Below, one piece after another: positions 40,481-59,384 of a stretch of DNA of 64,000 nucleotides. A program made the translations under genes and the position numbers. The stretch spans positions 1 through 64,000 of the forward strand of contig NZ_JSWF01000035.1 of NCBI RefSeq assembly GCF_000797445.1, given 5' to 3'. Positions within the stretch are counted from its first letter, which is position 1; the number at the start of each line of letters is the position of its first letter. The DNA comes from Lacinutrix jangbogonensis. GTDB taxonomy: Bacteria; Bacteroidota; Bacteroidia; Flavobacteriales; Flavobacteriaceae. Under the pieces are notes generated by a model. The model was not told where the DNA came from. It saw only the letters and a list, made by a program, of their open reading frames with translations, and ran no database searches.

Positions 40481-40524
40481 GTAACTTATGTTACTGCGTA
40501 AAACAAAGTGTTTTCCTATTTTTG
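40481..40524 (+). promoter_or_regulatory. Crp/Fnr-type operator and promoter of the HMA-thioredoxin operon
   Basis: GTAACTTATGTTAC (40481-40494), arms GTAAC/GTTAC, lies 22 bp before TATTTTTG (40517-40524). With transcription starting about 6 bases after the -7 box, the palindrome is centred near -42, the class II activator position. The same arrangement occurs at 53499-53542. Confidence 0.6.
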
Positions 40525-40592
40525 TAAAATATATTTAACAGGAATGGCAAATAAATAAAATTCATTTTCCGAAATTTAAAATAGCCTTAAAA

Positions 40593-40862
40593 ATGAAAAC
40601 CTCAATAGTAGTACAAAACTTAAAATGTGGTGGTTGCGCAAGTACAATTACTTCAAAAGTATCAGAAATTGAAAATATTTCAGATATTAATATAGGTATA
40701 GATAAAAGTAAAGTATCATTCAATTATATAAACGAAGTAGATGCTCTAGCTGTAAAAAACAAACTTAAAGCATTAGGTTATCCTTCAATAGAAGCCAATA
40801 ATTCATTGACATCTAAAGCTAAATCTTTTGTAAGTTGTGCGACTGGTAAATTTTCAAAATAA
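40593..40862 (+). CDS. Heavy-metal-associated (HMA) domain protein
   Basis: An 89-residue soluble HMA-fold protein, as in copper chaperones. The metal loop is LKCGGCAST (Cys12, Cys15) in place of the usual MxCxxC. The fold continues with VSEIENISDINIGIDKSKV and KNKLKALGYPS. A C-terminal extension adds one Cys (VSCATGK). It may carry Cu(I) or another thiophilic metal, or serve in thiol chemistry. It is 8 bases before a thioredoxin gene and shares its promoter, with the Crp/Fnr-like site upstream. Confidence 0.85.
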   Translation: MKTSIVVQNLKCGGCASTITSKVSEIENISDINIGIDKSKVSFNYINEVDALAVKNKLKALGYPSIEANNSLTSKAKSFVSCATGKFSK

Positions 40863-40870
40863 TTAGAATT

Positions 40871-41167
40871 ATGAGTAAATTTTCAGAAATAATAAACCAA
40901 GACAAACCCGTTTTAGTAGACTTTTTTGCAACATGGTGTGGACCATGTAAAGCATTGACTCCTATTTTAAAACAAGTAAAAGATGTATTAAAGGAAAACG
41001 TATCTATTATTAAAATAGATGTAGATAAAAACCAAGAGTTGGCATCAAAGTATCAAGTTAAAGGTGTGCCAACGATGCTATTGTTTAAAAACGGAAAACA
41101 AGTTTGGAGGCAATCTGGTGTATTACAAAAAGATGAAATAATTAAAATAATAGAAGCTTCAAATTAA
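40871..41167 (+). CDS. trxA: Thioredoxin
   Basis: A 98-residue cytoplasmic thioredoxin with the classical active site WCGPC (Cys23, Cys26), DFFATWCGPCKALTPIL, KIDVDKNQELASKYQVKGVPTMLLFKNG with the cis-Pro (VPT), and a C-terminal helix. It reduces protein disulfides. Second gene of the HMA operon; its placement behind a Crp/Fnr-like site suggests induction under redox or thiol stress (inference). Confidence 0.95.
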   Translation: MSKFSEIINQDKPVLVDFFATWCGPCKALTPILKQVKDVLKENVSIIKIDVDKNQELASKYQVKGVPTMLLFKNGKQVWRQSGVLQKDEIIKIIEASN

Positions 41168-41250
41168 TAGATTTAATGATAAATATCATCTTTAATATAA
41201 AAGCTATATAATAATTTTACATTATTAAAATAACACTAAATTATAATACT

Positions 41251-41400
41251 ATGACATCTCTAAGCATTGCGTTACAAAACTATAATAACGGAGTAGTAAT
41301 GATCGCTGTTTTTGCACTCGTTTGTGCAATTCTTGTCGGTTTATTAATAAAATTTATGGCTACTAGTGATAGAGATAAAGATGAACCTAAAGAAAGATAG
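41251..41400 (+). CDS. Small single-span membrane protein
   Basis: A 49-residue ORF: a polar N-terminus (MTSLSIALQNYNNG), one membrane helix (MIAVFALVCAILVGLLIKFM) and a charged tail (SDRDKDEPKER). It is 83 bases after the thioredoxin gene, ahead of a strong terminator, and probably in the same transcript. The family is not recognised; the composition and position make it credible. Confidence 0.6.
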   Translation: MTSLSIALQNYNNGVVMIAVFALVCAILVGLLIKFMATSDRDKDEPKER

Positions 41401-41423
41401 TTCACAGTTGAACTAATAATTAT

Positions 41424-41458
41424 AAAAAAGGAGCGCATTTAAAATGCACTCCTTTTTT
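41424..41458. terminator. Bidirectional terminator
   Basis: AAAAAAGGAGCGCATT and AATGCACTCCTTTTTT form a stem with one mismatch, between the HMA-thioredoxin unit and the convergent TonB receptor gene. Confidence 0.75.
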
Positions 41459-41477
41459 GGTTACCGAAAGTTATGTG

Positions 41478-43580
41478 TTAAAATTTATATTGTAAAAACG
41501 CTGAAAAATTTCGTCCTGGCTCTGTAATTGGAGTCCTTCCAAAATTTGCTTGATTAGTAAAAGAGAAATTTAAATGACTGTTATAAGCTTCATCTAATGC
41601 ATTAATTACAGCAATACCTAGCGTTATACTCTTTATTGGTTTTACACCAAAACGGATATCTAAAGTTTGGTAGCCATCGGTTTCTGTTTCACCAAAACTT
41701 TTAGAGATATTATCTTGTTTAGAAATAAGGTTATACTTTATGTTTGCCCAAAATTTCTCTTTTTGAAAGCCTAAACTTAATTTGGTACTTAAAGGAGGTG
41801 TTAAAGGTAAAGACTCTCCTAAATCTTTGTTTTTTGCATAAACATAGGCAAACTCAGTTCTAAAATAGTAATCCTTTAAAAAATCGACTTGAGCCATAGC
41901 TTCAAACCCGGTTTTATAAGCTTCATCTATATTTTGAAACACTTTTACATATTTCGGTTGTGCCATTGGCATAAACTTGCGTGTAATTGTAGGATCTACT
42001 ACTCCAACTATATAGTTTTCGAATGATGAATAATAAAAGGACGTTTCATATTTAAAACTATTAAAACCATTTTCTAACGGTTCGTTTCCTTTAAAACCTA
42101 TTTCAAATTGATTATTTACTTCTGCTTTTAAATTTGGGTTCCCTAAATATTCATAAGGATCTTGACCAACAGTAAAGTGGTTAATAAAACGCTCTATCAT
42201 ATTAGCAGAACGCACTCCGCGTCCAAAAGCAGCTTCTAAAGTAAAACGATCTGATACTCTGTTTTTAATAGAGACTGTTCCGCTTACATTATGTTCTGTT
42301 CTTTTTTCAAGTTTGTATAACGCTGCAAAATCCGCTTCGGGATCTTTTATGTCTGAAGTTACATTGTCATACCGAACGCCAACTGTAAAAATGTTTTTAG
42401 CATTAATAGTATACTTTGCTTCCGTAAACACACCTAAATCTGTAATATAAGAATCTTGCCAAACCTTATCATTAAAAGTCATTGGCATCGGTAATGGGCT
42501 TCCGTTCATAACTTTCACGAGTCTGGTTCTTCCGCCATCTCTAGCAATATGCATGGCATCTAAACCAGAAAACACATTCAGTTTTTCTGCTGGTTTCCAA
42601 TTTAATTCTAATTTACCACCAATAGTTGTTGCTTCTACTGCAGAAACTGCTTCCATCATCATAAAAGAAGGTCTATTATCGTTTGTCATTAAATGATCTA
42701 CATAGCTATAATAGGCTTTTGCAGTTAATGATTTTGCTATTTCACCAATATTATCCAGTTTATAATCTAAAGCTAAAATACTACTGTTGTCATATTCAGT
42801 ATCCATTGGTAAGGCAGCGTGTAAAACATCGCGACCAAAAGATTGTCTCCAATGTGCCTGTAAACGTTCGTCTTCAGACAAATTATAACCTATTTTGATT
42901 CCGTAGTCTGTACTTCTAAAAGACGAAGGTATTTCGATAGCATTTCCATCTTCATAATTACCAAAATCTCTATAACCAACATTAGCTACAATGTCATATT
43001 TCTCTTGAATGTATTGTAATTGTGCTAAGTTTACTAATGCGTCTCCATTACTTTCATATCCAGATGAAACTTTTCCGTGTAAACCATAATCTTCATAATC
43101 TGGTTTTTGAGTTACCAAATTAACAACACCGCCAAAAGTTGCTCCATATCTTACTGTGTATGGGCCTTTTATAATTTCAATTTTAGCAATTTCTTCTGGA
43201 ATAATATGTGTTGTAATTGGGTCCATTCTGTTAGGGCACGCATGCATGGCTTTAGTACCACCATCGTACTGAATATTCAATTGCTCGTATTGAGATGCTC
43301 TAAAAGAAGGATCTATTGCGTAATTCCCTCTTTTTATAACAGAGAGTCCGTTGATGTCATTAAATAAATCTGCTACGTTTTTTGGTTGCACAATATCCTT
43401 TTCATAATTATTGGCAACAATTGTAAGTACTGGATCTTTTTTTAGGTTCCCAGTAATAAGTACTTCGTCTAAGGTATTAATTTTTTGTTTTGTGGTGTCT
43501 TTTTGAGTTTCGGTTTGTTCTTGCCCAAAAGACATAGCTGTAATTAGTGCGCATAACAACACACTATATAATGTTTTCAT
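41478..43580 (-). CDS. TonB-dependent receptor, copper (OprC/NosA) type
   Basis: A 700-residue outer-membrane receptor powered by TonB. The signal ends MSFGQ. A plug with LDEVLITGNLKKDPVLTIV, then NIQYDGGTKAMHACPNRMDPITTHI (Met112 to Met119, a His/Cys/Met cluster) follows; the CxxRMDP pattern and its location match copper receptors of the OprC/NosA group. IEIIKGPYTVRYGATFGGVVNLVTQ closes the plug, and a 22-strand barrel ends in FSAFLQYKF. It is likely to import copper or a copper complex. A small GKCHLKK protein gene lies upstream on the same strand. Confidence 0.88.
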   Translation of the reverse strand: MKTLYSVLLCALITAMSFGQEQTETQKDTTKQKINTLDEVLITGNLKKDPVLTIVANNYEKDIVQPKNVADLFNDINGLSVIKRGNYAIDPSFRASQYEQLNIQYDGGTKAMHACPNRMDPITTHIIPEEIAKIEIIKGPYTVRYGATFGGVVNLVTQKPDYEDYGLHGKVSSGYESNGDALVNLAQLQYIQEKYDIVANVGYRDFGNYEDGNAIEIPSSFRSTDYGIKIGYNLSEDERLQAHWRQSFGRDVLHAALPMDTEYDNSSILALDYKLDNIGEIAKSLTAKAYYSYVDHLMTNDNRPSFMMMEAVSAVEATTIGGKLELNWKPAEKLNVFSGLDAMHIARDGGRTRLVKVMNGSPLPMPMTFNDKVWQDSYITDLGVFTEAKYTINAKNIFTVGVRYDNVTSDIKDPEADFAALYKLEKRTEHNVSGTVSIKNRVSDRFTLEAAFGRGVRSANMIERFINHFTVGQDPYEYLGNPNLKAEVNNQFEIGFKGNEPLENGFNSFKYETSFYYSSFENYIVGVVDPTITRKFMPMAQPKYVKVFQNIDEAYKTGFEAMAQVDFLKDYYFRTEFAYVYAKNKDLGESLPLTPPLSTKLSLGFQKEKFWANIKYNLISKQDNISKSFGETETDGYQTLDIRFGVKPIKSITLGIAVINALDEAYNSHLNFSFTNQANFGRTPITEPGRNFSAFLQYKF

Positions 43581-43708
43581 GTATAGTAATATTATAGTTA
43601 ACTTAAGTAATTTTGGTAGAAAAAACTACCTCGTATAAAAGAATAACTATACTTGAGGAGGATGAAAACAATTGTTTACACTTGTAAAAGCGTATAGGTT
43701 TTGATAAA

Positions 43709-44020
43709 CTATAGGACTTTTTTTTTGTTGTTATATTTTTGAAACACAACAACTTCAAAAGCACTTGAAAATAAAATGAGCTCTTTAAAATCGATAATAC
43801 TCTCAGGTGTTTTTTGGTCTTTATCTAGAGACTTTGTAACTTTTTTTAAATGACACTTACCATTACATTTAAGTTCTGGCTTGTCTTTATTTTCGCATAG
43901 GGCCTCAATAAAACCAACAGGATCTATATTGTAATAAGCATAAGTTAATGTAACTCTAGTACTATTAAAAAGTAGTAGTGTTGTTAAAATAACAGAGAAT
44001 ATGTAAGCACTTATTTTCAT
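43709..44020 (-). CDS. Small exported protein with CNGKCHLKK motif
   Basis: A 103-residue protein with one N-terminal hydrophobic segment (ISAYIFSVILTTLLLF) and a mature region with Cys42, then LKCNGKCHLKKV (Cys52, Cys56, His57). Small proteins with this GKCHLKK motif accompany TonB-dependent receptors in flavobacteria. The Cys/His cluster fits metal (copper) binding next to a copper-type receptor; this is inference. ATG 44020 is used because the GTG at 44026 lies in the -7 box TATTTTTG (44026-44033, minus). It ends 128 bases before the receptor. Confidence 0.7.
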   Translation of the reverse strand: MKISAYIFSVILTTLLLFNSTRVTLTYAYYNIDPVGFIEALCENKDKPELKCNGKCHLKKVTKSLDKDQKTPESIIDFKELILFSSAFEVVVFQKYNNKKKVL

Positions 44021-44122
44021 TGGCACAAAAATAATATATCGTGTTTTTAATACAACTGATTTTTGTCATGTTTTAAATTTAGTTTTGAAAATCAAAACAA
44101 ATACTAGTATAATTATTTTTTG

Positions 44123-44146
44123 TGTATTTGTTAACCAAATGGTTAA
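44123..44146 (+). promoter_or_regulatory. Promoter with probable TetR operator
   Basis: TGTATTTG (44123-44130) resembles a -7 box. TTAACCAAATGGTTAA (44131-44146), arms TTAACC/GGTTAA, covers the expected transcription start, a typical place for a TetR autorepressor. Confidence 0.5.
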
Positions 44147-44160
44147 ACCGTATAGTTGAA

Positions 44161-44772
44161 ATGAAAAAAAAGAAAGACGAAAATACTGAAGTAAAAATAC
44201 TAGATGCTGCAAAAAACATATTTCAGTCTAAAGGAATGGATGGCGCACGTATGCAAGAAATTGCAGATAGAGCTGGAATTAATAAAGCCATGCTTCATTA
44301 TTATTATAGAAGCAAACAGTTACTTTTTGAAGCCGTTTTTACAAATGCATTTTCGCTATTAGCGCCGCAATTAAATGCTATTTTAAATGATGATTCCTCT
44401 ATTGAGGAAAAAATAAAAAAATTCACATCTAACTATATTACGTTTATGATGAAGCATCCGTATTTGCCAAATTTTATTATTCAGGAACTTAATAGGAATG
44501 AAGATTTTATTTTAAAAATGAAGAACAACACTGGTTTTCCAAATTTAGAAAAGTTTAAAAAGCAAGTCTATGAAGAGGTTAAAAAAGACATTATAACATC
44601 CATTAGTGGAGAACAATTATTTATAAATACCCTCTCACTTTGTGTGTTCCCTTTTGTGGGCAGACCATTAATAAAAGCGCTAATTAACACTGATGAAGTG
44701 ACTTTTAACCAAATAATTGAAGCACGCAAAATAGAAGTTGCCAACTTTATTATTAACTCAATAAAAAAATAA
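44161..44772 (+). CDS. TetR/AcrR-family regulator
   Basis: A 203-residue repressor. The N-terminal helix-turn-helix is ILDAAKNIFQSKGMDGARMQEIADRAGINKAMLHYYYRSKQLLFEAVF, a canonical TetR DNA-binding domain. The ligand-binding C-terminal domain is helical and divergent. ATG 44161 (MKKKKDEN) is preferred to GTG 44122, which lies in the promoter. It starts the efflux operon: the TolC gene begins 1 base after its stop. It probably represses the operon until a drug-like ligand binds. Confidence 0.9.
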   Translation: MKKKKDENTEVKILDAAKNIFQSKGMDGARMQEIADRAGINKAMLHYYYRSKQLLFEAVFTNAFSLLAPQLNAILNDDSSIEEKIKKFTSNYITFMMKHPYLPNFIIQELNRNEDFILKMKNNTGFPNLEKFKKQVYEEVKKDIITSISGEQLFINTLSLCVFPFVGRPLIKALINTDEVTFNQIIEARKIEVANFIINSIKK

Positions 44773-44773
44773 G

Positions 44774-46024
44774 ATGAAAAAGTTAGTATTCATATTAGCA
44801 CTAACGTTTAGTTTCTCTGTTATAGCACAAGAAAGCATAACTTTAAATACGTGTTATAACTTAGTTGAAACCAATTACCCTTTAGCCAAACAAAGTAAAC
44901 TATTTGAAGATCAAAATAAGATAGATTCAGATGTTATATCCAATTCAAAATTACCACAATTTAGTATGGATGCTCAAGTAACTTATCAATCGGAAGTTAT
45001 CGAAATCCCTATACCAAATGCTAATATAGAACCTTTAAACAAGGATCAATATCGTGCCACAGTTTCAGTAAATCAAATCATTTATAATGGAGGTTTAACG
45101 GACGCTTCATTACAGGTTAAATCTGCTCAATTAAAAACCAAACAAAAACAGGTTGAAATAAGTTTATATCAATTTAAACAACAAATCAATCAACTCTATT
45201 TTTCTGTTTTACTCGCACAGGAATCTGAATTATTATTAAACGCCAAGCAAACACAAGTGCAAGCAAAACACAAAGAAGTACAATCTGGGATTAAGTATGG
45301 TTTAATTTTACCAACTTCGGATTTAATATTGGAAGCCGAATTAATAAAAATAAGCCAGCAACTTCAAGAATTAGAAAGCAATAAAATTGCACTTATTGAA
45401 ACACTTTCAAGTTTAATAAGTCAACAATTAAATGCTGCTACCCTATTTCAAAACCCACTTATAGAGACACAATTACAAACAGAAATATCAAGACCTGAAT
45501 TGGAATTACTTCAACTTAAAAAAGAAGAAATTGAAAGTTCAGAAATACTAATCTCCAAGCAAAACGCACCAAAATTAATTGGTTTCGCAACTGGTGGCTA
45601 TGGTAATCCAGGATTGAATATGCTCGATAATTCGTTTCAAACATTCTACACACTTGGCGTAAAATTACATTGGAATATATTTGACTGGCATTCAAATAAG
45701 AAGCAACGTGAGTCTTTAGTAATCAACAAAGACCTTATAGATAATGAAACTGAAATCTTTAAACTAAACACCAATATCAAATTAAATCAGCTCCAAAAAG
45801 AAATAGATAAAATGGAAGTGATCATTATATCTGATGCTAAAATTATTAAGCTTAGAAAAGAAGTATTAAAAACAGCCGATTCGCAACTTAAAAATGGAGT
45901 GATTACGTCTTCAGCATATGTTACAGAACTCACCAATTTATACCAAGATGAAAACACGTTGGTAAGACATGAAATTCAGTTAAAACTCACAAAATCAAAT
46001 TACAATGTCATCAAAGGACAATAA
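44774..46024 (+). CDS. TolC-family outer-membrane efflux protein
   Basis: A 416-residue outer-membrane channel subunit. The signal ends SVIAQ. Two long coiled-coil repeats with SVNQIIYNGGLTDASLQVKSAQL and KLHWNIFDWHSNKKQRESL mark the repeated OEP domains of TolC. It is the exit duct for the ABC exporter encoded downstream; genes are packed in the order tetR-tolC-hlyD-ATPase-ATPase-permease-permease. Confidence 0.92.
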   Translation: MKKLVFILALTFSFSVIAQESITLNTCYNLVETNYPLAKQSKLFEDQNKIDSDVISNSKLPQFSMDAQVTYQSEVIEIPIPNANIEPLNKDQYRATVSVNQIIYNGGLTDASLQVKSAQLKTKQKQVEISLYQFKQQINQLYFSVLLAQESELLLNAKQTQVQAKHKEVQSGIKYGLILPTSDLILEAELIKISQQLQELESNKIALIETLSSLISQQLNAATLFQNPLIETQLQTEISRPELELLQLKKEEIESSEILISKQNAPKLIGFATGGYGNPGLNMLDNSFQTFYTLGVKLHWNIFDWHSNKKQRESLVINKDLIDNETEIFKLNTNIKLNQLQKEIDKMEVIIISDAKIIKLRKEVLKTADSQLKNGVITSSAYVTELTNLYQDENTLVRHEIQLKLTKSNYNVIKGQ

Positions 46025-46034
46025 AAACAGACAC

Positions 46035-46925
46035 ATGAAAAACTACAACTATATCTTAGGATTAAGCATCATGACGACTAGCTTGTTTTCATGTGAAAAC
46101 GACAATGGAAAAGCAGATGGTTACGGAAATTTTGAAGCTACAGAAATAACCATTTCAGCGGAAACTAACGGAAAGCTAATGCCGTTTACTATTAACGAAG
46201 GAGATGTGCTCGAAGAAGAACAGTTTATAGGCTATATCGATACTATTCAACTGGCATTAAAACGTGAACAATTAGAAGTATCTAAAACTGTTATTAGCTC
46301 AAAATCAAAAGGTGTGCTATCTCAAATATCTGTACTAAACTCCAAGTTTAAAACAGCCAAAATAAACAAAACTAGAGTTGAAAACCTAATTCGAGATAAT
46401 GCAGGAACGCAAAAGCAATTAGACGATGTTTCAGGAGAAATGGATGTTATTAAAAGTCAAATTAGAAGTGTAGAAATCCAAAATGCACCCGTGGTTAACG
46501 AACTTAAATCTATTGATATTCAAATAAAACAGATTGATGACCAAATCCAGAAAAGCAAAATTACAAATCCTATAAACGGAACAGTCTTAACCAAATACAC
46601 AGAACCCAATGAAATTACCGCTTTTGGAAAACCATTGTATAAAATCGCAGATTTAAGTACCATGCAATTACGCGTGTACATTAGCGAAACACAATTAGCC
46701 AATATTAAAATAGGACAAGAAGTTTCTGTTAAAATTGATGATGCAGATACTATGAAATCTTATAATGGGATGGTTAGCTGGATAGCTTCAGAAGCCGAAT
46801 TTACACCAAAAATAATTCAAACTAAAGAAGAACGTGTTGCACTGGTTTATGCAGTAAAAATTGACGTTAAAAATGATGGCAGTCTTAAAATAGGAATGCC
46901 AGCAGAATTATGGCTAACAAATTAA
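46035..46925 (+). CDS. HlyD-family periplasmic adaptor lipoprotein
   Basis: A 296-residue membrane-fusion protein, YbhG/YhiI-like. Lipobox LFSC after MTTS. Biotinyl-lipoyl half-motif EATEITISAETNGKLMPFTINEGD, coiled-coil hairpin with NKTRVENLIRDNAGTQKQLDDVSGEM, then ITNPINGTVLTKYTEPNEIT and a beta-barrel with LRVYISETQLANIKIGQEVSV. ATG 46035 is used; ATG 46005 within the tolC end would add a non-signal extension. It connects TolC to the inner-membrane ABC exporter. Confidence 0.9.
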   Translation: MKNYNYILGLSIMTTSLFSCENDNGKADGYGNFEATEITISAETNGKLMPFTINEGDVLEEEQFIGYIDTIQLALKREQLEVSKTVISSKSKGVLSQISVLNSKFKTAKINKTRVENLIRDNAGTQKQLDDVSGEMDVIKSQIRSVEIQNAPVVNELKSIDIQIKQIDDQIQKSKITNPINGTVLTKYTEPNEITAFGKPLYKIADLSTMQLRVYISETQLANIKIGQEVSVKIDDADTMKSYNGMVSWIASEAEFTPKIIQTKEERVALVYAVKIDVKNDGSLKIGMPAELWLTN

Positions 46926-46928
46926 AGA

Positions 46929-47831
46929 ATGAGTATTAGCATTTCTAACATATCAAAATCTTACAAAAAAGCAAAAGCTTTACAAGACATTTCTTTTGAT
47001 GTAAAACCAGGTGAACTCTTTGGGCTTATTGGTCCAGATGGAGCTGGAAAAACAACGTTGTTCAGAGTTTTAACCACGCTTTTAATCGCAAATGAAGGTA
47101 ATGCAACCGTTGCTGGTTTTGATGTGGTTGACGATTACAAAAGCATTAGGAAAAATGTTGGTTATATGCCTGGAAAATTCTCGCTCTATCAAGATTTAAC
47201 AGTTGAAGAGAATTTAAAATTTTTTGCTACTATTTTCGGAACAACCATAGAAGAAAACTACGATTTAATAAAAGAAATCTATGTACAAATAGAACCTTTT
47301 AAAGATCGTCGTGCTGGCAAATTGTCTGGTGGAATGAAACAAAAACTCGCTTTATGCTGTGCATTAATCCATAAACCTAAAGTATTGTTTTTAGATGAAC
47401 CTACAACAGGAGTAGATCCTGTTTCTAGAAAAGAATTCTGGGACATGTTAAAACGATTACAACAAAAACATATCACCATTTTGGTATCTACACCTTATAT
47501 GGATGAAGCAGCTCTATGTGATAGAATTGCATTAATTCAAGATGGGAAAATTTTGGAGATTGATTCACCAGAAGCCATTGTGAAAAATTACACAAAACAA
47601 ATTTATAATGTACGTGCAAATAATATGTACCTACTTATTAATAGTTTAAAAGAATACGAATACAACCATAGCGTATATCCTTTTGGCGAGTTTGTGCATT
47701 ATACAAACAGTAGAACAGATTTTAATCCTGAAAATTTAAAGGTGTTTTTAGAATCTAAAAGTCTAATTGATATTGAAATTAAAAAAACAGTAGCAACGAT
47801 TGAAGACACCTTTATGGAACTAGCAAAATAA
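46929..47831 (+). CDS. ABC-2 exporter ATPase, first subunit
   Basis: A 300-residue ATPase. Walker A GPDGAGKTT (35-43), signature KLSGGMKQKLAL and Walker B VLFLDEPTTGVDP are intact. It corresponds to the first ATPase half of E. coli YbhF, here as a separate protein. It overlaps the next ATPase gene by one base (TAATG). It energises export by the two permeases downstream. Confidence 0.92.
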   Translation: MSISISNISKSYKKAKALQDISFDVKPGELFGLIGPDGAGKTTLFRVLTTLLIANEGNATVAGFDVVDDYKSIRKNVGYMPGKFSLYQDLTVEENLKFFATIFGTTIEENYDLIKEIYVQIEPFKDRRAGKLSGGMKQKLALCCALIHKPKVLFLDEPTTGVDPVSRKEFWDMLKRLQQKHITILVSTPYMDEAALCDRIALIQDGKILEIDSPEAIVKNYTKQIYNVRANNMYLLINSLKEYEYNHSVYPFGEFVHYTNSRTDFNPENLKVFLESKSLIDIEIKKTVATIEDTFMELAK

Positions 47832-48559
47832 TGAGCAACGAAAAAGTCATACAAGTAGAAGGATTAACTAAAATGTTTGGAGATTTTACAGCTGTAAACG
47901 ACATTACTTTTGAAGTTAATAAGGGTGAAATATTTGGATTCCTAGGCGCAAATGGTGCAGGAAAAACCACTGCTATGAAAATGCTTATTGGTATTTCTAA
48001 ACCAACTTCTGGGAAGGCAAAAGTAGCAGGGTTCGATGTATTTAAACATGCAGAAGACATTAAAAAGAATATTGGTTATATGAGTCAGAAATTTGCATTG
48101 TATGACGACTTAACCGTTAAAGAAAATATTACTTTTTTTGGTGGTATTTATGGATTACCGAGAAAACGAATAAAAGAAAAATCGAATGTTTTAATTGAAG
48201 AATTAGGCCTTGAGCAGGTTGCAAACAAATTAGTTGGCTCCTTACCATTGGGTTGGAAACAAAAACTTTCCTTTTCTGTGTCTTTGCTTCACGATCCTAA
48301 AATCGTGTTTTTAGACGAACCAACAGGGGGCGTTGATCCAATTACTAGAAGACAGTTTTGGGAAATGATTTACAAAGCAGCCAACAATGGAACAACCGTT
48401 TTTGTAACCACACATTATATGGATGAAGCAGAATATTGTGATCGTGTTTCAATTATGGTTAATGGTAAAATTGAAGCTTTAGATACTCCAAAAAAGCTAA
48501 AAGAACAGTTTAAGGTTGCAAATATGAACGATGTGTTTTTAAAATTAGCAAGAGGATGA
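47831..48559 (+). CDS. ABC-2 exporter ATPase, second subunit
   Basis: A 242-residue ATPase. Walker A GANGAGKTT (39-47) and Walker B IVFLDEPTGGVDP are intact, but the signature is LPLGWKQKLSFS instead of LSGGxxQ, as in the second half of YbhF. This suggests an asymmetric pair with one altered ATP site. One-base overlap upstream and four-base overlap (ATGA) with the first permease. Confidence 0.92.
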   Translation: MSNEKVIQVEGLTKMFGDFTAVNDITFEVNKGEIFGFLGANGAGKTTAMKMLIGISKPTSGKAKVAGFDVFKHAEDIKKNIGYMSQKFALYDDLTVKENITFFGGIYGLPRKRIKEKSNVLIEELGLEQVANKLVGSLPLGWKQKLSFSVSLLHDPKIVFLDEPTGGVDPITRRQFWEMIYKAANNGTTVFVTTHYMDEAEYCDRVSIMVNGKIEALDTPKKLKEQFKVANMNDVFLKLARG

Positions 48560-49662
48560 AACGTTTCAAAGGCTTTATAAAAAAGGAATTCTACCATATC
48601 TTTAGAGATAGACGCTCGTTGTTTATTCTCTTCGGAATGCCTATCGCACAAATATTGCTGTTTGGCTTCGCAATAACTAACGAAATAAACAATGTAGATA
48701 TTGCTGTTTTAGACCATTCTAAAGATGCAACTACAGAAGAAATTATCAATAAAATTTCAGACTCAAAATATTTTAGTGTTAAACAAATGGTTGATCGCGA
48801 AGCAGATATTGCTTCGGTATTTAAAAAAGGTGAAGTTAAAGCCGTTTTAAATTTCGAAAAAGATTTCAGTAAAAACCTAATGAAAGACCACAAAGCAACG
48901 GTTCAGATTATTACAGATGCTACAGATCCAAATACAGCAAATACAATAAGTAATTATCTAAATGCTATTCTTCAAAAGTATCAAAAAGAATTAAATAAAG
49001 ACATTACTATTGCATACCAAATAGTTCCACAAACACGTATGGTTTACAATCCAGAATTAAAGAGTGTCTATATGTTTGTTCCTGGAGTAATGACTATTAT
49101 TTTAATGTTAGTTTCAGCAATGATGACTTCCATTTCCATTACCCGAGAAAAGGAATTAGGAACAATGGAAATACTATTAGTATCACCATTAAAACCAATT
49201 CAGGTCATTATTGGCAAGGTATTTCCTTACATTTTTCTATCCATTATTAACGCAGTAGTAATCGTCTTATTAAGTATTTTTATTTTTAAAATGCCAGTTC
49301 AAGGCAGCTTGTTTTTATTAGGTTTAGAAAGTATTCTTTTTATAATAAGCGCTTTAGCTTTAGGTATATTAATTTCAACTATTTCAGCAACACAACAAAC
49401 GGCCATGATGATTTCTTTAATGGGATTAATGCTTCCTGTAATTTTACTATCAGGATTTATTTTTCCTATTACAAGTATGCCATTACCATTGCAAATGATT
49501 AGTAATATTATTCCTGCTAAATGGTTTATTATCATCATTAAAGGTATCATGCTAAAAGGCGTTGGACTCCAATATATATGGAAAGAAACCTTGATTTTAT
49601 TGGGAATGACTGTGTTTTTTATAGCATTAAGTGTTAAGAAATATAAAATTAGACTGGAATAA
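48556..49662 (+). CDS. ABC-2 permease, YbhS-like
   Basis: A 368-residue inner-membrane permease: an N-terminal helix (RSLFILFGMPIAQILLFGFAI), a large periplasmic domain (to about residue 175) and five C-terminal helices. ITREKELGTMEILLVSPLKPIQVIIGKVFPY is the hallmark ABC-2 coupling segment. Forms a heterodimer with the following permease. One-base overlap with the next gene. Confidence 0.91.
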   Translation: MKRFKGFIKKEFYHIFRDRRSLFILFGMPIAQILLFGFAITNEINNVDIAVLDHSKDATTEEIINKISDSKYFSVKQMVDREADIASVFKKGEVKAVLNFEKDFSKNLMKDHKATVQIITDATDPNTANTISNYLNAILQKYQKELNKDITIAYQIVPQTRMVYNPELKSVYMFVPGVMTIILMLVSAMMTSISITREKELGTMEILLVSPLKPIQVIIGKVFPYIFLSIINAVVIVLLSIFIFKMPVQGSLFLLGLESILFIISALALGILISTISATQQTAMMISLMGLMLPVILLSGFIFPITSMPLPLQMISNIIPAKWFIIIIKGIMLKGVGLQYIWKETLILLGMTVFFIALSVKKYKIRLE

Positions 49663-50783
49663 TGAAAACAATCTTATACATCATACAAAAAGAGTTTAAG
49701 CAAATCTTTAGAAATAAGGGCATGCTTCCTATAATATTCATTTTGCCATTATTGCAACTGGTTATATTATCAAATGCCGCAACTTTTGAAGTGAAGAATA
49801 TCAAATTTGGCTACATCGATAATGATCGCACATCCACATCTAGAGCATTAGTCGAAAAATTTAATGCTTCTACTTATTTTGATGTATTAACAGATTTTCC
49901 TTCGGAAGCATTAGCAAGTTCGGAAATGCTAAAAGGAAAAGTAGATATTATTTTAGAAATCCCACACTATTTTGAACGCGATTTACAAAAAGAAAAACAC
50001 AATAATTTAGGCATTACCATTAACGCAATTGATGGCGCAGCAGCTGGTGTTGAAAATGTATATGTCACGCAGGTTATTCAACACTTTAATCAACATTTAA
50101 AAGTCGATTTAGTACAAGTTTCAGACCAACAGGTTCAGCCTATAACTATAGAAACCATTCCACTGTTTTGGTATAACAAAACCTTAAATTATAAAACATT
50201 TATGGTTCCTGGAATACTAGTTTTATTGGTAACTATGATTACACTTTTCCTTTCAGGAATGAATATTGTACGCGAAAAAGAAATAGGAACTTTAGAACAA
50301 ATAAACGTCACACCCATTAAGAAAAGTCAGTTTATTATTGGAAAACTCTTTCCGTTTTGGGTTATAGGAATGGGCTTATTAACTGTTGGATTACTATTAG
50401 CAAGACTCATATTTAATGTTCCTATGATTGGTAGTTTATCATTGATGTATTTATACACGTCCATTTATATTTTAGTGATTTTAGGCATAGGACTCTTCAT
50501 TTCAAATTTTACAGACACACAACAACAAGCCATGTTTATCGCTTGGTTTTTTAAGGTTATTTTTATTTTAATGAGTGGATTATTTACACCAATTGAGAGT
50601 ATGCCAAAATGGGCTCAAATATTTACCGAGTTTAATCCAATAAAATATTTTGTAGAAGTCATGCGAATGGTCATGCTAAAAGGCTCTGGATTTACAGATA
50701 TTCTTCCACAACTACTAAAAACATTGTTATATGCTGTAGTTATGAATGGTTTGGCTGTTTGGAGCTACAAGAAGACTAATTAA
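49662..50783 (+). CDS. ABC-2 permease, YbhR-like
   Basis: A 373-residue permease with the same layout: RNKGMLPIIFILPLLQLVILSNAA helix, periplasmic domain, then IVREKEIGTLEQINVTPIKKSQFIIGKLFPFW and five helices, ending near GLAVWSYKK. Last gene of the TetR-controlled efflux operon. Confidence 0.91.
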   Translation: MKTILYIIQKEFKQIFRNKGMLPIIFILPLLQLVILSNAATFEVKNIKFGYIDNDRTSTSRALVEKFNASTYFDVLTDFPSEALASSEMLKGKVDIILEIPHYFERDLQKEKHNNLGITINAIDGAAAGVENVYVTQVIQHFNQHLKVDLVQVSDQQVQPITIETIPLFWYNKTLNYKTFMVPGILVLLVTMITLFLSGMNIVREKEIGTLEQINVTPIKKSQFIIGKLFPFWVIGMGLLTVGLLLARLIFNVPMIGSLSLMYLYTSIYILVILGIGLFISNFTDTQQQAMFIAWFFKVIFILMSGLFTPIESMPKWAQIFTEFNPIKYFVEVMRMVMLKGSGFTDILPQLLKTLLYAVVMNGLAVWSYKKTN

Positions 50784-50854
50784 CCTTGTGTAACATTAGA
50801 TACATTTTAAGCTTTTTATTAATTCTAAATTTGTTTTATAATTAATAATACTCA

Positions 50855-52180
50855 ATGAAAACAAATACAATTTTTTCGTTTTTTATCGCTTTATTTATAA
50901 TAAGCTGCAACTCTGCTCAAGAACAATCTATGGTCAAAATTGAACCATTAACAATTACAGATGCACCAGGAGTACACTCATATTCGTTAGGGAAAACAAG
51001 TGATGGAAAATGGTTAATACTAGGAGGCAGAATTGAAGGACTTCATAAAATGAGACCTTTTGAAGCCTTTAGACAAAATGAGAATAATAAAAATGTTTTC
51101 TTAATAGACCCAGAAAACAATAAAACCTGGAGTACAGATTTAAGCGTTTTATCTCCTTCTATTTTTGAGTAATTACAAGCTACAAACCAAGAATTTCATC
51201 ATAGAGAGAATACATTATATGTTATTGGTGGTTATGGTTACAGTGAAACTGCACAGGACCATGTTACATACAATAATTTAACAGCAATAGATATTGATGG
51301 CTTAGCAGATGCAATTATCAATAAAACCAGCATTACTCCTTTTTTTAGACAAATAAGCAATGATAATTTAGCTGTAACAGGTGGACAGTTAGGGTACTTA
51401 AATAACACCTTTTATTTGTGTGGAGGACAATATTTTGAAGGAAGATACAATCCAATGGAACCAGATCACGGACCAGGGTTTATACAGAATTATACAGATG
51501 AGATTAGAAAATTTGAAATCCGTGATGACGGTATTAATCTTTCAATAAACAATTATTCTGCCACTAAAGACCAAAAAAACTTACATCGAAGAGATTATAA
51601 TATGGTGCCTCAAATATTCCCAAATGGTGAACAAGGCTTTACAATTTTTAGTGGCGTTTTTCAATACGATGTTAATCTCCCATGGTTAAACTCGGTAGAT
51701 ATAAATGAAAGTGGTTATAAAGTAAATAATGAATTTCGTCAACTTCTCAGTCAATATCATAGTGCAAAAATCCCTATGTATGATTCTAAAAAAAATGAGA
51801 TGTACACCATCTTTTTTGGTGGCATGAGTCAATTTCAGTTTAATGAAGCTGGTGCGTTAGTTCAAGATGACGATGTTCCTTTTGTTAAAACAATTAGCAT
51901 GATAGTAAGACATGAAGACAGCACTATGGTAGAAAAAAATTTAGGCGTAAAAATGCCAGGATTTTTAGGGTCTGCAGCAGAGTTTATTCCTATAAAAAGT
52001 CAAAACATGTATTTGGAAAATGATATTTTAAATTTCAATAAGCTAAAAAAAGGAAACAATCTAGTCGGTTATATTTATGGTGCCATTGAGAGTACAAAAG
52101 AGAATATTTTCTTCAATAATAATGGAAGTCAAAGTAAAGCTAGCAGTAAGGTTTTTAAGGTAACTATTTATAAAAATTAA
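50855..52180 (+). pseudogene. Kelch-like lipoprotein gene with in-frame stop
   Basis: A 441-codon frame for a lipoprotein (signal to IISC) with beta-propeller-like, Kelch-type repeats: DGKWLILGGRIEGLH, NTLYVIGGYGYSE, NTFYLCGGQYFEGRYN and NEMYTIFFGGMSQF. A single TAA (51170-51172, after SPSIFE) splits it; reading through gives LQATNQEFHHREN, and CAA (Gln) to TAA is the simplest origin. No frameshift is needed. Either a young nonsense mutation or a base error. Function unknown; it follows the efflux operon but has its own leader. Confidence 0.75.
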
Positions 52181-52361
52181 AATAATTAGATGATCAAAAA
52201 TACAAATCAAAATATCAAAAATTTAAAACGATGAATCCAGTCATTCAGTTTTTTAAATTCATTTATTTAAATATAAAAATAATGAATGTTGTAACTGAAG
52301 ATCACGGAGACACGAGAAAAGTAAACTGATGTGGTTATCAGTTTTGGTTAGTTAGTTAAAG

Positions 52362-52391
52362 GCATTTATAAGAAATTATAAGTGCTTTTTT
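52362..52391 (+). terminator. Terminator after the Kelch-like gene
   Basis: GCATTTATAA and TTATAAGTGC pair around GAAA, followed by six T. It lies 180 bases past the stop; the intervening stretch holds nothing recognisable. Confidence 0.65.
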
Positions 52392-52427
52392 GTTGTCAGT
52401 TATCTTACAACTATTCTACTTCTATTT

Positions 52428-53426
52428 TTAATTCCCTTTTAAGCGCAACCACAATTGAGATAACAACTTTTTTCCATCACGATTATCTTTAGGCGCCTCT
52501 ACAAATTGAACATTTCCAAAACCATCTCCTTCTATTTTATACTTAAAAACAAAGTTTTGAGCTTTTGGTTCCAAACTTAAAAGACCAAAGCGTAAATCGT
52601 TAAAATAAAGACTCCCATTTTCTTTCGCTATTGTGTACCATCCTTGAGAGATAGAAATCATCCGCTGTACATTTTCGTGATTAACAAGATTACCTAATAG
52701 CTCATGGTTTTTAGGATAAGATTCAAAAGTTATTGGTTGCGTATCAAAAAATGAATAATTCCCCAATAAATAAGCATCTTCTGTTTCAATATTAGCACTC
52801 CAAAGGATTGTGTTCATTGGAGAAGGTCTAGTATCTAATTGCAAATACTCTATGTTTTGAATTTCTAAAGCAGATTGAAATTGAATAAACGCAATCCATT
52901 TTAAAAGAAATGTAAGCACTAAATAACTTGAACTCACCATTAAGCCTATTCTATTATAAAATTGACGCTTTTTAGACGTTCGCTTTTGTCGCATAGCCAA
53001 AACTAAAAACATTAAAAAAGGCAAAGTATAAAGCGGATCGATAACAAAAATGGTTTTAAAAGCCAATCTTAAATCAAAAGGCCAAAATAATTGTGTTCCC
53101 CAAGTAGTATGCGCATCTAAAATAGGATGTGTTACAAATGCCCAGAAAAACAACCAAGACCAACTTTTAAAATTTCTAAAAGTTTCATAACGCGACACAA
53201 GCCAACCAAGTATGGGCGCAAAAAGCACAGAAAACACAATAGAATGTGTAAATCCACGATGAATGGAAAGTGCTGTAACAGTATCTGTAAAGTAAGAAGC
53301 AAAAACATCAAAATCTGGAATAGTTCCAGCAATAGCACCATAAAGCATAGCCTTATTTCCAACTTTATTACCTAAAACAACCTCTCCAACTGCTGCTCCT
53401 AATATTATTTGAGTAAGTGAATCCAT
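52428..53426 (-). CDS. YdjM/YbcI-type membrane-bound metal-dependent hydrolase
   Basis: A 332-residue inner-membrane protein of the DUF457 (LexA-regulated YdjM) family. MDSLTQIILGAAVGEVVLG is the typical start; IPDFD (Asp38, Asp40), HRGFTHS (His56, His61) and THPILDAHTTWGTQLF supply putative metal ligands. Five membrane helices, then a soluble C-terminal domain of about 130 residues. It may act on lipids; the activity is unproven. Convergent with the Kelch-like gene and divergent from the RND operon. Confidence 0.87.
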   Translation of the reverse strand: MDSLTQIILGAAVGEVVLGNKVGNKAMLYGAIAGTIPDFDVFASYFTDTVTALSIHRGFTHSIVFSVLFAPILGWLVSRYETFRNFKSWSWLFFWAFVTHPILDAHTTWGTQLFWPFDLRLAFKTIFVIDPLYTLPFLMFLVLAMRQKRTSKKRQFYNRIGLMVSSSYLVLTFLLKWIAFIQFQSALEIQNIEYLQLDTRPSPMNTILWSANIETEDAYLLGNYSFFDTQPITFESYPKNHELLGNLVNHENVQRMISISQGWYTIAKENGSLYFNDLRFGLLSLEPKAQNFVFKYKIEGDGFGNVQFVEAPKDNRDGKKLLSQLWLRLKGN

Positions 53427-53498
53427 AGTGTTCTACAAAAGTAAATCATGCAAACCAAAAAACATACTATACTTTCTTATAAGTGCCCTTTTTGGTTG

Positions 53499-53542
53499 GT
53501 AACTTTTGTTACTGACTTCTACCTTTCTTAAGTATACTTTTG
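53499..53542 (+). promoter_or_regulatory. Crp/Fnr-type operator and promoter of the RND operon
   Basis: GTAACTTTTGTTAC (53499-53512) stands 22 bp before TACTTTTG (53535-53542), and so would be centred near -42. Palindrome, following ACTG and spacing equal those at 40481-40524. Confidence 0.62.
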
Positions 53543-53564: not shown

Positions 53565-54869
53565 ATGAAAAACCCTTTTTATATACCATTATTACTCTCA
53601 GTTTTTACTTTATCCGCGCAAGCGCAAGAATTGGTTCCAATTACAAAAACAGAAGTCTTATCTAAAGTCTCCGAAAACAACACTAGCATTAAGATTTCTG
53701 AAGAAGAGTTTAAGCAAGCTAAAGCAGATTACAAACAAACTAGTGCTGTGTTTCTGCCAAACATTACAGCTAGTCATACTGCAATGGCAACTACAAATCC
53801 GTTAATGGCTTTTGGGTCTAAATTAAATCAGGAAATTTTAACTCAAAGCGATTTTAATCCTGCATTATTAAATGATCCTACTCAAATTGAAAATTATGCT
53901 ACAAAGTTTGAGATTTTGCAACCACTTATAAATTTAGACGGTATTTATCAACGTAAAGCTGCTAAGTCGAAAATGGAAGCCATCTCTTTAAAAACAGAAC
54001 GCACACAAGATTTTCTAGCTTTTGAGGTTGAGAAAGCATACATGCAGTTGCAATTAGCCTACAAAGCTGTTGCTGTTTTAGAAAAAGCGTTAACGGCGGC
54101 TAATGCTAATCAAAAATTAGCAGATAATCGTTTTAAACAAGGGTACTTACAACGTGCAGATGTTTTGAATGTTGAAGTACGCGTAACAGAGGTGCAAAAC
54201 CAGTTACAAACAGCAAAAAGTAATGTGCAAAATGCTTCAAATTATTTATCTTTTTTAATGAATGACGAGTCCTATGTGATATACACACCAACAGATAGTT
54301 TGGAAGTTTCAAACGTTACAATTGAAGACAAAGTAATCTCTGAAAACCGTTCAGACATCAAAGCAATGCAACTAGCTTCAAATGCTTACGAAGCTATCAC
54401 CAAAGCTGATAAAATGGCTTTTTTACCAAGGCTAAACGCTTTTGGAAGTTATGAACTGTATGATGACAAAATTTTTCAAGGTGATTCTAATGGCTATCTT
54501 TTTGGAGCACAATTAAGTTGGGATATTTTTCAAGGTTCTAAGCGTTTTGGAAAAGCACAAAAAAGCAAATCGAAATTCGAACAATCTAAATTAGAATACA
54601 AGCAATATGTATCTAAAAGCAATTTAGAATTAAATAAAGCAAAACGTGCTTTTTTAGATGCTAAAAACAAATTAAAACTAACAACTTTAGCATTAAAACA
54701 ATCTGAAGAGTCTTTAAGAATTAGAACCAACAGATTTAAAGAAGGTTTAGAAAAAACATCAGATTTACTAATGGCTGAAACACAATATTCGCAAAAACAA
54801 TTAGAGTATTACCAAACCATATTTGAATACAATTACACACAAGCGTATTTACAATTTTTAACTAAATAA
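53565..54869 (+). CDS. TolC-family outer-membrane factor of the RND pump
   Basis: A 434-residue outer-membrane channel protein. The signal ends LSAQAQ. Repeated OEP domains with AEVEFKQAKADYKQTSAVFLPNIT-like sequence (here SEEEFKQAK), NPLMAFGSKLNQEILTQSDFNPALLNDP, an insertion typical of flavobacterial homologues, and SWDIFQGSKRFGKAQKSK. First gene of tolC-adaptor-RND-DUF2892, behind the Crp/Fnr-like promoter. Confidence 0.92.
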   Translation: MKNPFYIPLLLSVFTLSAQAQELVPITKTEVLSKVSENNTSIKISEEEFKQAKADYKQTSAVFLPNITASHTAMATTNPLMAFGSKLNQEILTQSDFNPALLNDPTQIENYATKFEILQPLINLDGIYQRKAAKSKMEAISLKTERTQDFLAFEVEKAYMQLQLAYKAVAVLEKALTAANANQKLADNRFKQGYLQRADVLNVEVRVTEVQNQLQTAKSNVQNASNYLSFLMNDESYVIYTPTDSLEVSNVTIEDKVISENRSDIKAMQLASNAYEAITKADKMAFLPRLNAFGSYELYDDKIFQGDSNGYLFGAQLSWDIFQGSKRFGKAQKSKSKFEQSKLEYKQYVSKSNLELNKAKRAFLDAKNKLKLTTLALKQSEESLRIRTNRFKEGLEKTSDLLMAETQYSQKQLEYYQTIFEYNYTQAYLQFLTK

Positions 54870-54934: not shown

Positions 54935-56011
54935 ATGAAAAAAATATATACAATTGTTACACTTTCTGTGGCTTTATTATTAGCGAGTTGTGGTAGCGAA
55001 GATAAAAAATTAGTTGAGGGCAATTCGCCAGCAATAAGTGTAAAAACAAGCAAAGTAGTTGCCAATAGTAACAGTCCGTTTTTAAGCGTTAGCGGAAAAA
55101 TTCAAGCAACAAATAGTGCAGATTTAAGCACCAGAATGATGGGTTACGTTAATAAAATACACGTCAATGTTGGAGATAAAGTGCGCAAAGGACAATTATT
55201 AATGTCCATAAATAATTCTGATCTACAAGCAAAACGTGCTCAAGTAAATGCAGGAATTACAGAAGCTACTGCTGCTTATAATAATGCTCAAAAAGACTAC
55301 AAACGCTTTAAAAACTTGTTTGCTGATAATAGTGCATCGCAAAAAGAAATGGACGATATGACTGCTAATTTTGAAATAGCAAAAGCACGTTTAGAATCTA
55401 CAAACCAAATGAAAAACGAAATTAATGCACAGTTTGTGTATAGTAATATTACAGCACCTTTTAACGGAACAATAACTAGTAAAAATGTTGAAGCTGGAAA
55501 TATGGCAAATCCTGGAATACCACTAATAAGTATTGAAACTCCAGGTGATTTTGAAGTGATGGCAATGGTTCCAGAAACAGAGATATCTGAAATCAAACAA
55601 GGGACTACAGTTGATGTTTTAGTAAAGTCCATTAACAAAACTATTAAAGGAAAAGTGACAGAAATTAGTACATCTGCCAAAAATACAGGAGGACAATATT
55701 TAGTAAAAATAGATTTAGACAAAACAGATGCAAATATTTTATCTGGAATGTTTACAACGGTTCAGTTTCCTGTAGAAAGAAAAGCAAAATCAGAACTCGT
55801 TCTAATTCCAACTGAAGCAATAGTAACCAAAGGACAATTATCTGGGATTTACACAGTAAGTCAAAGTGGAACAGCATTATTACGTTGGTTGCGTTTAGGT
55901 AGAACTTTTGGAAATCAAATAGAAGTATTATCTGGTTTAAATGCAGATGAAGCCTACATTGTTTCTGCCGAAGGAAAATTATTTAATGGAGCGAAAGTTA
56001 GTGTTCAATAA
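54935..56011 (+). CDS. RND efflux periplasmic adaptor lipoprotein
   Basis: A 358-residue membrane-fusion protein, lipobox LLASC (Cys19). Lipoyl motif MMGYVNKIHVNVGDKVRKGQLLMSI, helical hairpin with FKNLFADNSASQKEMDDM, ITAPFNGTITSKNVEAGNMANPG, then the beta-barrel with VMAMVPETEISEIKQGTTVDV. It couples the TolC-like channel to the RND pump. A 178-base gap with repeats separates it from the pump gene. Confidence 0.92.
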   Translation: MKKIYTIVTLSVALLLASCGSEDKKLVEGNSPAISVKTSKVVANSNSPFLSVSGKIQATNSADLSTRMMGYVNKIHVNVGDKVRKGQLLMSINNSDLQAKRAQVNAGITEATAAYNNAQKDYKRFKNLFADNSASQKEMDDMTANFEIAKARLESTNQMKNEINAQFVYSNITAPFNGTITSKNVEAGNMANPGIPLISIETPGDFEVMAMVPETEISEIKQGTTVDVLVKSINKTIKGKVTEISTSAKNTGGQYLVKIDLDKTDANILSGMFTTVQFPVERKAKSELVLIPTEAIVTKGQLSGIYTVSQSGTALLRWLRLGRTFGNQIEVLSGLNADEAYIVSAEGKLFNGAKVSVQ

Positions 56012-56134: not shown

Positions 56135-56149
56135 AAAAAATACAGAATT

Positions 56150-56173
56150 GAGATTCTCACCTTCGTGGGAATG
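56150..56173. repeat. Dispersed hairpin, copy d
   Basis: GAGATTCTCAC and GTGGGAATGG form a short stem immediately before the RND pump gene. It creates a false in-frame TTG start (56148) for that gene. Confidence 0.55.
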
Positions 56174-56189
56174 GAAAAAAAATAATGCA

Positions 56190-59100: not shown

Positions 59101-59384
59101 GAATTATGGTACGGAATTCGGTATTACTAATCGATTTTATCAACCTAAGAACAGCCGAAGGTGTGCCACTTAAACAAGCAGCAATTGAAGCAGGAGCAGT
59201 ACGTACAACACCAATTTTATTAACAGCTGGAACGGTTGTAATTGGAGCATTCGTGATTTTATTTGATCCCATTTTCCAAGGCCTAGCGATTTCATTAATG
59301 GGTGGAACTATTGTTTCCACAGTATTAACCTTATTGGTTGTGCCATTAGTATATTATATGATTGAAAAGAAGAATTATAAATAA
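56190..59384 (+). CDS. RND-family efflux pump, inner-membrane subunit
   Basis: A 1064-residue proton-driven exporter of the AcrB/MexB superfamily. Twelve membrane helices with two large periplasmic loops; features include SSFLIPREEEPQIDVPMADIFI, YPGASPTEVESRVIKPLEQLI, the TM4 proton relay VTGIVVDDSIIIAENMHRHY, and the second-half GIMVRNSVLLIDFIN. It is closer to the EEEPQ/RND_acriflavine-like group than to metal CusA; the substrate is undefined. ATG 56190 is chosen; the codons from TTG 56148 come from a dispersed hairpin. Third gene of the operon. Confidence 0.94.
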   Translation: MKEGIAGKIAKVFMQSKLTILLMIVFMVVGVYSSFLIPREEEPQIDVPMADIFIGYPGASPTEVESRVIKPLEQLISNIKGVEYVYSTSMKEQGMVIVQFYVGEDIERSFVKLYNEINKHMDEMPEGVTFPLVKTRAIDDVPMLGLTLWSENYDDYQLNQMAQELEAEIKKVNDVAITHKIGGRNRQLRVVLDKDKLASSGLDFLSVSKMITSSNSQMSAGSFDKNDTEFLINTGKFLESVTDVENLVVGVQQNQPIYLKQIAEIIDGPEIPQNYVSLGFGKGSIKSSDYKSEYPAVTISVAKRKGADAMKIAEIIIDKVEHLRATLIPDDVHVEVTRNYGETASNKVSELLWHLIGSIFAVTLVVMLAMGWRGGLVVFLSVPITFALTLLSYYMMDYTLNRITLFALVFVTGIVVDDSIIIAENMHRHYKMKRLPFKQAALYAINEVGNPTILATFTVIASVLPMAFVSGLMGPYMAPMPIGASIAMILSLFVALTITPYLGYIFLREKDKKGAENKPEKAVEDTLIYKIYNQFERPLLESKRKRWLFLIGTFVVLLATMVLFFTNSVAVKMLPFDNKNEFQVVIDMPEGTTLERTGVVTQEISQYLATRPEVVNYQNYVGTSAPITFNGLVRHYDLRGGSNMADIQVNLIDKGERDIQSHGIVKLLRPDIQKIASKYNANVKLVEVPPGPPVLSTIVAEVYGPDYNEQIKIANSVQNILKNTDDVVDIDWMVEDDQTEYQFDINKEKAMLYGVAPQQITYTMNMALSNRAITNIYNENAVNQIGLVLALDEKEKSTISDISQLKVKSKQGNMVPIADLVDITKTTAAKSIYRKNQKRVVYVMADMAGALESPAYAILGMEEKLKEIPLPKGYELNEMYLGQPDFEDNYTVKWDGEWQITLEVFRDLGIAFLGAIILIYILIVGWFQNFKAPIVMMVAIPLSLIGIILGHWIMGAFFTATSFIGMIALAGIMVRNSVLLIDFINLRTAEGVPLKQAAIEAGAVRTTPILLTAGTVVIGAFVILFDPIFQGLAISLMGGTIVSTVLTLLVVPLVYYMIEKKNYK

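Follow-up and report, generated by a model that had tools for sequence, protein, structure and literature searches.

A conserved operator-promoter arrangement in Lacinutrix jangbogonensis and its relatives points to a Crp/Fnr-type regulon for sulfide or persulfide stress

Two operons in a 64,000-nucleotide stretch of the Lacinutrix jangbogonensis genome (Flavobacteriaceae; contig NZ_JSWF01000035.1, positions 1 to 64,000, forward strand; hereafter the window) begin with the same palindromic operator, GTAAC-N4-GTTAC, set at the same distance from a TAnnTTTG −7 box; one encodes an HMA-domain protein and a thioredoxin, the other a TolC-RND export system. We propose, with a probability of roughly 0.72, that a single Crp/Fnr-type activator encoded on another contig, C17, serves both operators, working as a class II activator at TAnnTTTG promoters, and that its targets make up a sulfide/persulfide-stress regulon. 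The computed support lies in the conservation of the operator and its spacing, in the co-occurrence and adjacency of regulator and sites, in the content of the target genes, and in three invariant cysteines of the regulator. The DNA word is not new, being the published HcpR2 motif; the assignment of a Crp/Fnr class II regulon to sulfur is.

Operator 1 (GTAACTTATGTTAC, 40481..40494) lies in the promoter of the HMA/thioredoxin operon, upstream of the −7 box TATTTTTG (40517..40524), and operator 2 (GTAACTTTTGTTAC, 53499..53512) in that of the RND operon, upstream of the box TACTTTTG (53535..53542); all four elements are on the forward strand. As a preliminary description of this DNA had reported, the two palindromes differ by a single spacer base and each is separated by 22 bp from its box; both are exact matches in the window to the composite of palindrome and −7 box. 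That description also pointed to an ACTG after each palindrome. The letters are there, as the end of GTTAC plus TG, but TG comes next at only 75 of 223 sites in the family, and ACTG was rejected as a part of the operator. In Flavobacterium psychrophilum, the sigma-A −7 consensus TAnnTTTG spans −12 to −5 (PMC9723704). With the box so placed, the operator occupies −48 to −35 and is centred at −41.5, which is the class II position; the centre of about −42 claimed earlier is thus recovered by geometry, with F. psychrophilum as the reference. Class II CRP/FNR promoters of Escherichia coli likewise have the operator centre at −41.5, but with a TATAAT −10 element in place of the Bacteroidota −7 box.

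The palindrome by itself is uninformative in the host assembly (4.0 Mb, 46 contigs). Allowing one mismatch, the window contains four copies of it where 1.55 would be expected, a number reached in 10 of 100 shuffles, and it occurs genome-wide at 11 places, or nine distinct ones once two in a copied region on contig C12 are set aside, against nine control places in which duplicates were not collapsed. With no enrichment in its own genome, the bare palindrome was rejected as evidence. The composite with the −7 box, at up to three mismatches, has four window matches against 1.31 expected (5 of 100 shuffles reach this), and across the genome such loose matches are noise, at 74 against 101 in the control. 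The nine distinct palindromes include four in a sulfur or thiol context, namely the two window sites, one before a persulfide dioxygenase/rhodanese fusion gene on C17 and one before a rhodanese gene on C33; four lie inside open reading frames (ORFs), among them what we take from the translations to be msrA, a photolyase gene and an etf gene, and the ninth precedes a small gene on C28.

Across the family, the composite behaves very differently. We scanned 299 family genomes for GTAAC-N4-GTTAC followed at 20–24 bp by a −7 box, with the reversed pattern as the control, and recovered 457 sites in 214 genomes against 25 control hits; the host genome contributes four sites, including the two C12 copies. 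This is far beyond chance, and it bears out the shared operator-promoter geometry first proposed from the two window sites. Frequency at random positions, which the preliminary description had held would speak against the motif, is therefore seen for the bare palindrome in the host genome and not for the composite in the family. A census of 111 distinct sites was drawn from the 457 (30 loci returned by the search tool and 80 stretches taken in list order). The gap to the −7 box is 22 bp at 98 of these sites, 21 bp at seven and 23 bp at six, with 20–24 bp allowed; only three of the 111 fall within a long ORF, and in the 81 sites with a measured distance the start codon follows the box at a median of 20 bp. 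With the gap left unrestricted, 80 named regulator loci (0.96 Mb) contain 138 palindromes against one control palindrome, and a box follows at 22 bp in 77 sites, while no other gap between 0 and 60 accounts for more than four. In a phylum-wide sample, the exact 22-bp site occurs in 36 of 395 genomes, 35 of these in the same class.

The same arrangement is retained upstream of the orthologous operons. For each of the TolC and HMA genes we took, from the 144 and 113 genomes, respectively, with a match, the 30 loci that scored highest, that of the host genome among them. Among the TolC loci, 29 of 30 have the site at exactly 22 bp with at most one mismatch across site and box; the contig of the thirtieth starts 18 bp before the match, which cuts off its upstream region. 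Random 275-bp windows from the same loci pass a looser score in 3–5% of cases, true sites included. Of the 30 HMA loci, 7 have a site of their own and 19 have the regulator no more than 8 kb away, so that one or the other holds in 23. In named genomes such as those of Olleya and Lacinutrix, the gene order runs regulator, site, TauE, persulfide dioxygenase (PDO), a site whose box has one mismatch, HMA, thioredoxin; the HMA-thioredoxin operon of the window therefore looks like a displaced piece of that cluster that has retained its operator.

The preliminary description had placed the regulator outside the window and had advised looking for a co-occurring Crp/Fnr protein. The candidate is a gene of 210 amino acids on contig C17 (G000:C17:54378-55007), identified by its HTH_Crp_2 match, one of three in the genome (the others are L017 and L018), and it stands beside a third site. 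The gene is directly upstream of a TauE/SafE gene (PF01925), which is followed by the C17 site, a metallo-beta-lactamase (MBL)/rhodanese fusion (PF00753, PF00581) and two short YeeE/YedE-type genes (PF04143). The first of these two matches the C-terminal part of TsuA and the second the N-terminal part, a split also seen in PmpA and PmpB (PMC11582611). At a presence threshold of E ≤ 1e-60, sites occur in 205 of 235 family genomes with this regulator and in 9 of 64 without it (Fisher p about 1e-28). Regulator and site are also often close neighbours. Coordinates for both were listed for 43 of the 299 genomes; 32 of these have a same-strand site no farther than 5 kb from the regulator, in 20 of them no more than 200 bp after its stop codon. 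Over the 80 named loci, a site whose box has at most one mismatch follows within 200 bp of the regulator stop in 58, and one occurs anywhere on the same strand in 71. The C17 gene itself carries a TAAATTTG box, but a search just upstream of it that allowed two mismatches found no operator; the regulator is therefore probably made without self-activation in this genome.

The genes behind the sites give the regulon its character. The first genes after the 111 sites are TolC (23), TauE (15), PDO (14), SulP (9), a small secreted protein (7), Thioredoxin_9 (4), rhodaneses other than single ones (3), a single rhodanese (1), the YgaP transmembrane protein, DUF983, YeeE and cytochrome c (3 each), CydA, peroxiredoxin and the regulator itself (2 each), and singletons encoding an SQR-like protein, OsmC, a TlpA-like protein, a thioredoxin, a second MBL protein and a small protein of the C28 type; 11 are other genes. 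Classes were assigned by BLAST to proteins of the host genome (60 genes) and by Pfam scans of ten representatives, with the three rhodaneses and the TlpA-like, SQR-like and second MBL proteins classed by reading their translations. In our own grouping, sulfur and thiol genes make up 59 of the 111 and the RND operon 23. Cytochrome bd-type terminal oxidases tolerate sulfide. Because the targets would oxidize sulfide, remove persulfide, repair thiols and supply a sulfide-tolerant oxidase, they point to sulfide/persulfide stress as what the regulon serves. The earlier suggestion of a thiol/sulfur or metal stress regulon thus holds in its sulfur and thiol half, on the target census, and is not supported in its metal half, on the permease scores given below and the position of HMA genes among sulfur genes. 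Two of the target groups deserve separate mention. The small secreted-looking protein, of about 120–133 amino acids, follows seven of the sites (L040, L104, L110, L113, L117, L122, L144), and the one representative scanned, that of L113, has no Pfam match. The SulP sulfate-permease genes (L098 and eight further loci) form a link to anion transport.

The regulator has features that would suit a sulfur sensor. Cysteines C77, C83 and C84 are invariant in 30 of 30 and in 40 of 40 regulators, two sets that may overlap in species and are not fully independent, and columns 77, 83 and 84 are the only ones with cysteine in at least 3 of the 30. The structure model has a Crp/Fnr fold, with a cNMP-binding-type domain and a Crp-type HTH, and the three cysteines align with the cyclic-nucleotide (cAMP-binding) loop of CRP. 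In CRP, cAMP is contacted by E72, R82, T127 and S128. In the alignment, the regulator has M79 at CRP position 72, K89 at 82, and L135 and L136 at 127 and 128; the CRP-type cAMP contacts are not kept. FNR proper holds its [4Fe-4S] cluster with four cysteines, of which three lie close to the N terminus, and the regulator, with cysteine columns at 77, 83 and 84 only, lacks this pattern. The recognition helix retains an arginine at the position of CRP R180 and has lost E181 (SRVV); the residue at the E181 position, Val183, is invariant in alignments of 16 and of 40 sequences. A published rule ties the residues at R180 and E181 to the half-site (Rodionov 2005, PMC1274295), and by that rule the kept arginine and the lost glutamate fit a GTAAC half-site.

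On the mechanism proposed here, a dimer of the protein encoded at G000:C17:54378-55007 would bind GTAAC-N4-GTTAC centred at −41.5 and, once bound, would act as a class II activator that recruits RNA polymerase to TAnnTTTG promoters. Persulfide or polysulfide would modify C77, C83 and C84 and so switch on DNA binding or activation. Direct DNA binding, activation (not repression) and the signal are elements that we infer. The targets would comprise the persulfide dioxygenase-rhodanese, the TauE/SafE exporter, the YeeE/YedE pair, thioredoxin-type reductants, rhodanese, and TolC-RND-YgaP export. Judged from sequence, the family scan, the co-occurrence, the orthologous operons and the target census together favour the Crp/Fnr-type class II activator suggested at the outset, with a sulfur regulon. 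More tentatively, and at somewhat less than even odds, the C17 regulator may found a family of Bacteroidota Crp/Fnr persulfide sensors in which a C-x5-CC thiol switch in the same loop replaces cyclic-nucleotide binding, and whose directly activated regulon pairs persulfide oxidation with the export of sulfane sulfur or of sulfide-induced waste by a dedicated TolC-RND-YgaP pump.

Several findings weigh against this interpretation. At the persulfide dioxygenase site of the host genome, no good −7 box stands 22 bp away. The HMA gene has a site of its own in only 7 of the 30 loci, and another seven have neither a site nor a nearby regulator. An exact composite site is missing from 30 of the 235 genomes that have the regulator; nine of the 64 genomes without the regulator have one, six of them less than 90% complete and three more than 90%. 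In 11 of the 43 genomes in the distance count, every listed site is more than 5 kb from the regulator. Of the two paralogues, L018 and the Fnr-like L017, the co-occurrence test covers L018. Lastly, the structure model is weak at the cysteine loop, with block means of 64 and 59 and values below 50 at residues 80–82, so that the placement of the cysteines in the pocket follows from the sequence alignment.

The identity of the motif raises the prospect that an HcpR2-like protein reads it and that the operons serve nitric oxide or nitrite stress. HcpR2 of clostridia, Bacteroides, Thermotogales and Treponema has been assigned GTAACnnnnGTTAC, the identical motif, and is likewise a Crp/Fnr protein without the FNR iron-sulfur cysteines (PMC1274295). 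Its regulon, as described there, is built on hcp, whereas the targets here are sulfur, thiol and RND genes. A single one of the 149 family genomes yielded a match to the hcp gene (PF03063), a fragment of 42 positions, and the host genome yielded none; across 30 hcp loci, no clear HcpR2 protein stands beside hcp, with one weak Crp-like ORF. HcpR2 carries proline at the E181 position, with serine and glutamine named as exceptions (PMC1274295), and the valine of the C17 regulator departs from this. With most of the named site-linked genes belonging to sulfur, thiol or RND functions, we regard an HcpR2-type nitrosative-stress regulon as quite unlikely. Another Crp/Fnr protein of the same cell, the Fnr-like L017 or L018, might instead use the sites, in which case the signal would be oxygen or general redox state. 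The genome does contain three HTH_Crp_2 matches, L018 shows R-P at the recognition positions, as HcpR2 does, and cytochrome bd genes follow 2 of the 111 sites. Orthologues of L018, however, do not track the sites, which occur in 1 of 10 genomes that have L018 without a C17-type regulator and in 88 of 97 with the C17 type alone; L018 was rejected as the regulator on this count. The clustering of sites beside the C17-type gene, in 58 of 80 named loci and within 200 bp in 20 of 43 genomes, also makes use by such a paralogue quite improbable.

A further reading accepts the C17 regulator and replaces persulfide by heme or another redox signal, as proposed for PgRsp of Porphyromonas gingivalis. PgRsp is a heme-binding Bacteroidota Crp/Fnr protein linked to redox stress, and its model was built on 3DV8 (PMC6955866). 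Among the matches listed from solved structures, the C17 regulator too has its best sequence match in 3DV8. No HcpR-named structure is among those matches, which says nothing against relatedness. PgRsp differs in its heme binding and oxidative-stress role, and the available part of its report describes no sulfide targets, a comparison made by description only (PMC6955866). The sulfur-rich regulon and neighbourhood and the three invariant cysteines speak for a sulfur ligand, and a heme-type signal appears unlikely. A metal regulon, with copper as the stress, was suggested by the HMA protein and the RND pump, and a palindrome on C28 (L014:4736-5178) does stand upstream of a small gene preceding an RND gene that is presumably CusA-like, a name taken from its translation. 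That palindrome lies 13 bp, not 22 bp, from TAATTTTG, although a family site at L090, with a 21-bp gap, precedes a relative of the same small gene. The window permease scores 477 bits with the general RND model against 257 with CusA/CzcA, both below the cut-offs, and HMA genes are located in sulfur clusters. Copper or other metal stress is therefore highly improbable as the function of the regulon.

Under the preferred reading, a Crp/Fnr activator of sulfide/persulfide-stress genes would join known regulators from other protein families. CstR (CsoR family), SqrR/BigR (ArsR family) and FisR (a sigma-54 activator) likewise control sulfide-detoxification genes and use conserved cysteines (PMC9774590); here the candidate is a Crp/Fnr protein, and its proposed regulon includes an RND operon. 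The regulator has only Crp/Fnr-type Pfam domains at E ≤ 0.001, with no CsoR, ArsR or sigma-54 activator domain. A Crp protein of Acinetobacter baumannii has been found persulfidated, with an unknown effect (PMC7315123). Among the matches listed in a literature search that was thin on subscription journals, no paper describes a Bacteroidota Crp/Fnr regulator of sulfide or persulfide. Marine habitats near sulfide commonly harbour Bacteroidota. When sulfide was added to sediment, sqr and pdo transcripts rose, with Bacteroidota among the phyla involved, and the accessible portion of that report names no Bacteroidota regulator of these genes (PMC12345210). The operator, candidate regulator and target list make the question testable in Olleya, Lacinutrix and Polaribacter. 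If the proposal is correct, it would bring a further protein family into the set of known persulfide sensors, reveal how a class II activator works with the unusual Bacteroidota promoter, and give the RND pump a likely physiological role beyond drug efflux.

The genes of the two window operons all lie on the forward strand. Operator 1 is followed by the HMA-domain gene (40593..40862; 89 amino acids, PF00403) and, 8 bp later, the thioredoxin gene (40871..41167; 98 amino acids, PF00085, with TIGR01068 above its cut-off). A 49-amino-acid ORF for a small membrane protein, with no Pfam match (41251..41400), comes after a gap of 83 bp, and its membership in the operon is uncertain. Operator 2 precedes a TolC-like outer-membrane factor gene (53565..54869; 434 amino acids, named from the preliminary description and its translation), the periplasmic adaptor gene (54935..56011; 358 amino acids, TIGR01730 above cut-off), the RND permease gene (56148..59384, listed from a TTG at 56148, with no RND model reaching its cut-off) and a YgaP-like transmembrane (DUF2892) protein gene (59400..59585; 61 amino acids, PF11127).

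Some further sites and sequences were noted. A candidate operator 3 (GTAACATTAGATAC, 50790..50803, forward strand), with one mismatch, lies 22 bp upstream of a −7 box TAAATTTG (50826..50833, forward strand) and stands 21 bp before an ORF, which we take to be kelch-like, with an in-frame TAA near 51170 (50790-51172). This kelch-like gene is present in only three other family genomes of the 149 searched, and the three loci bearing it contain no similar operator; with no counterpart there, candidate site 3 was set aside as a conserved member of the regulon. A gene on contig C46 that looks, by eye, like the Thioredoxin_9 targets of relatives has a weak site (G000:C46:28022-28065), with two mismatches in all, 5 bp ahead of its start. 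Contig C12, finally, holds a reverse-complement copy of window positions 30834-62243; because the two are identical across the 31,410 bp compared, the copy is either redundant assembly or a recent duplication of the region.

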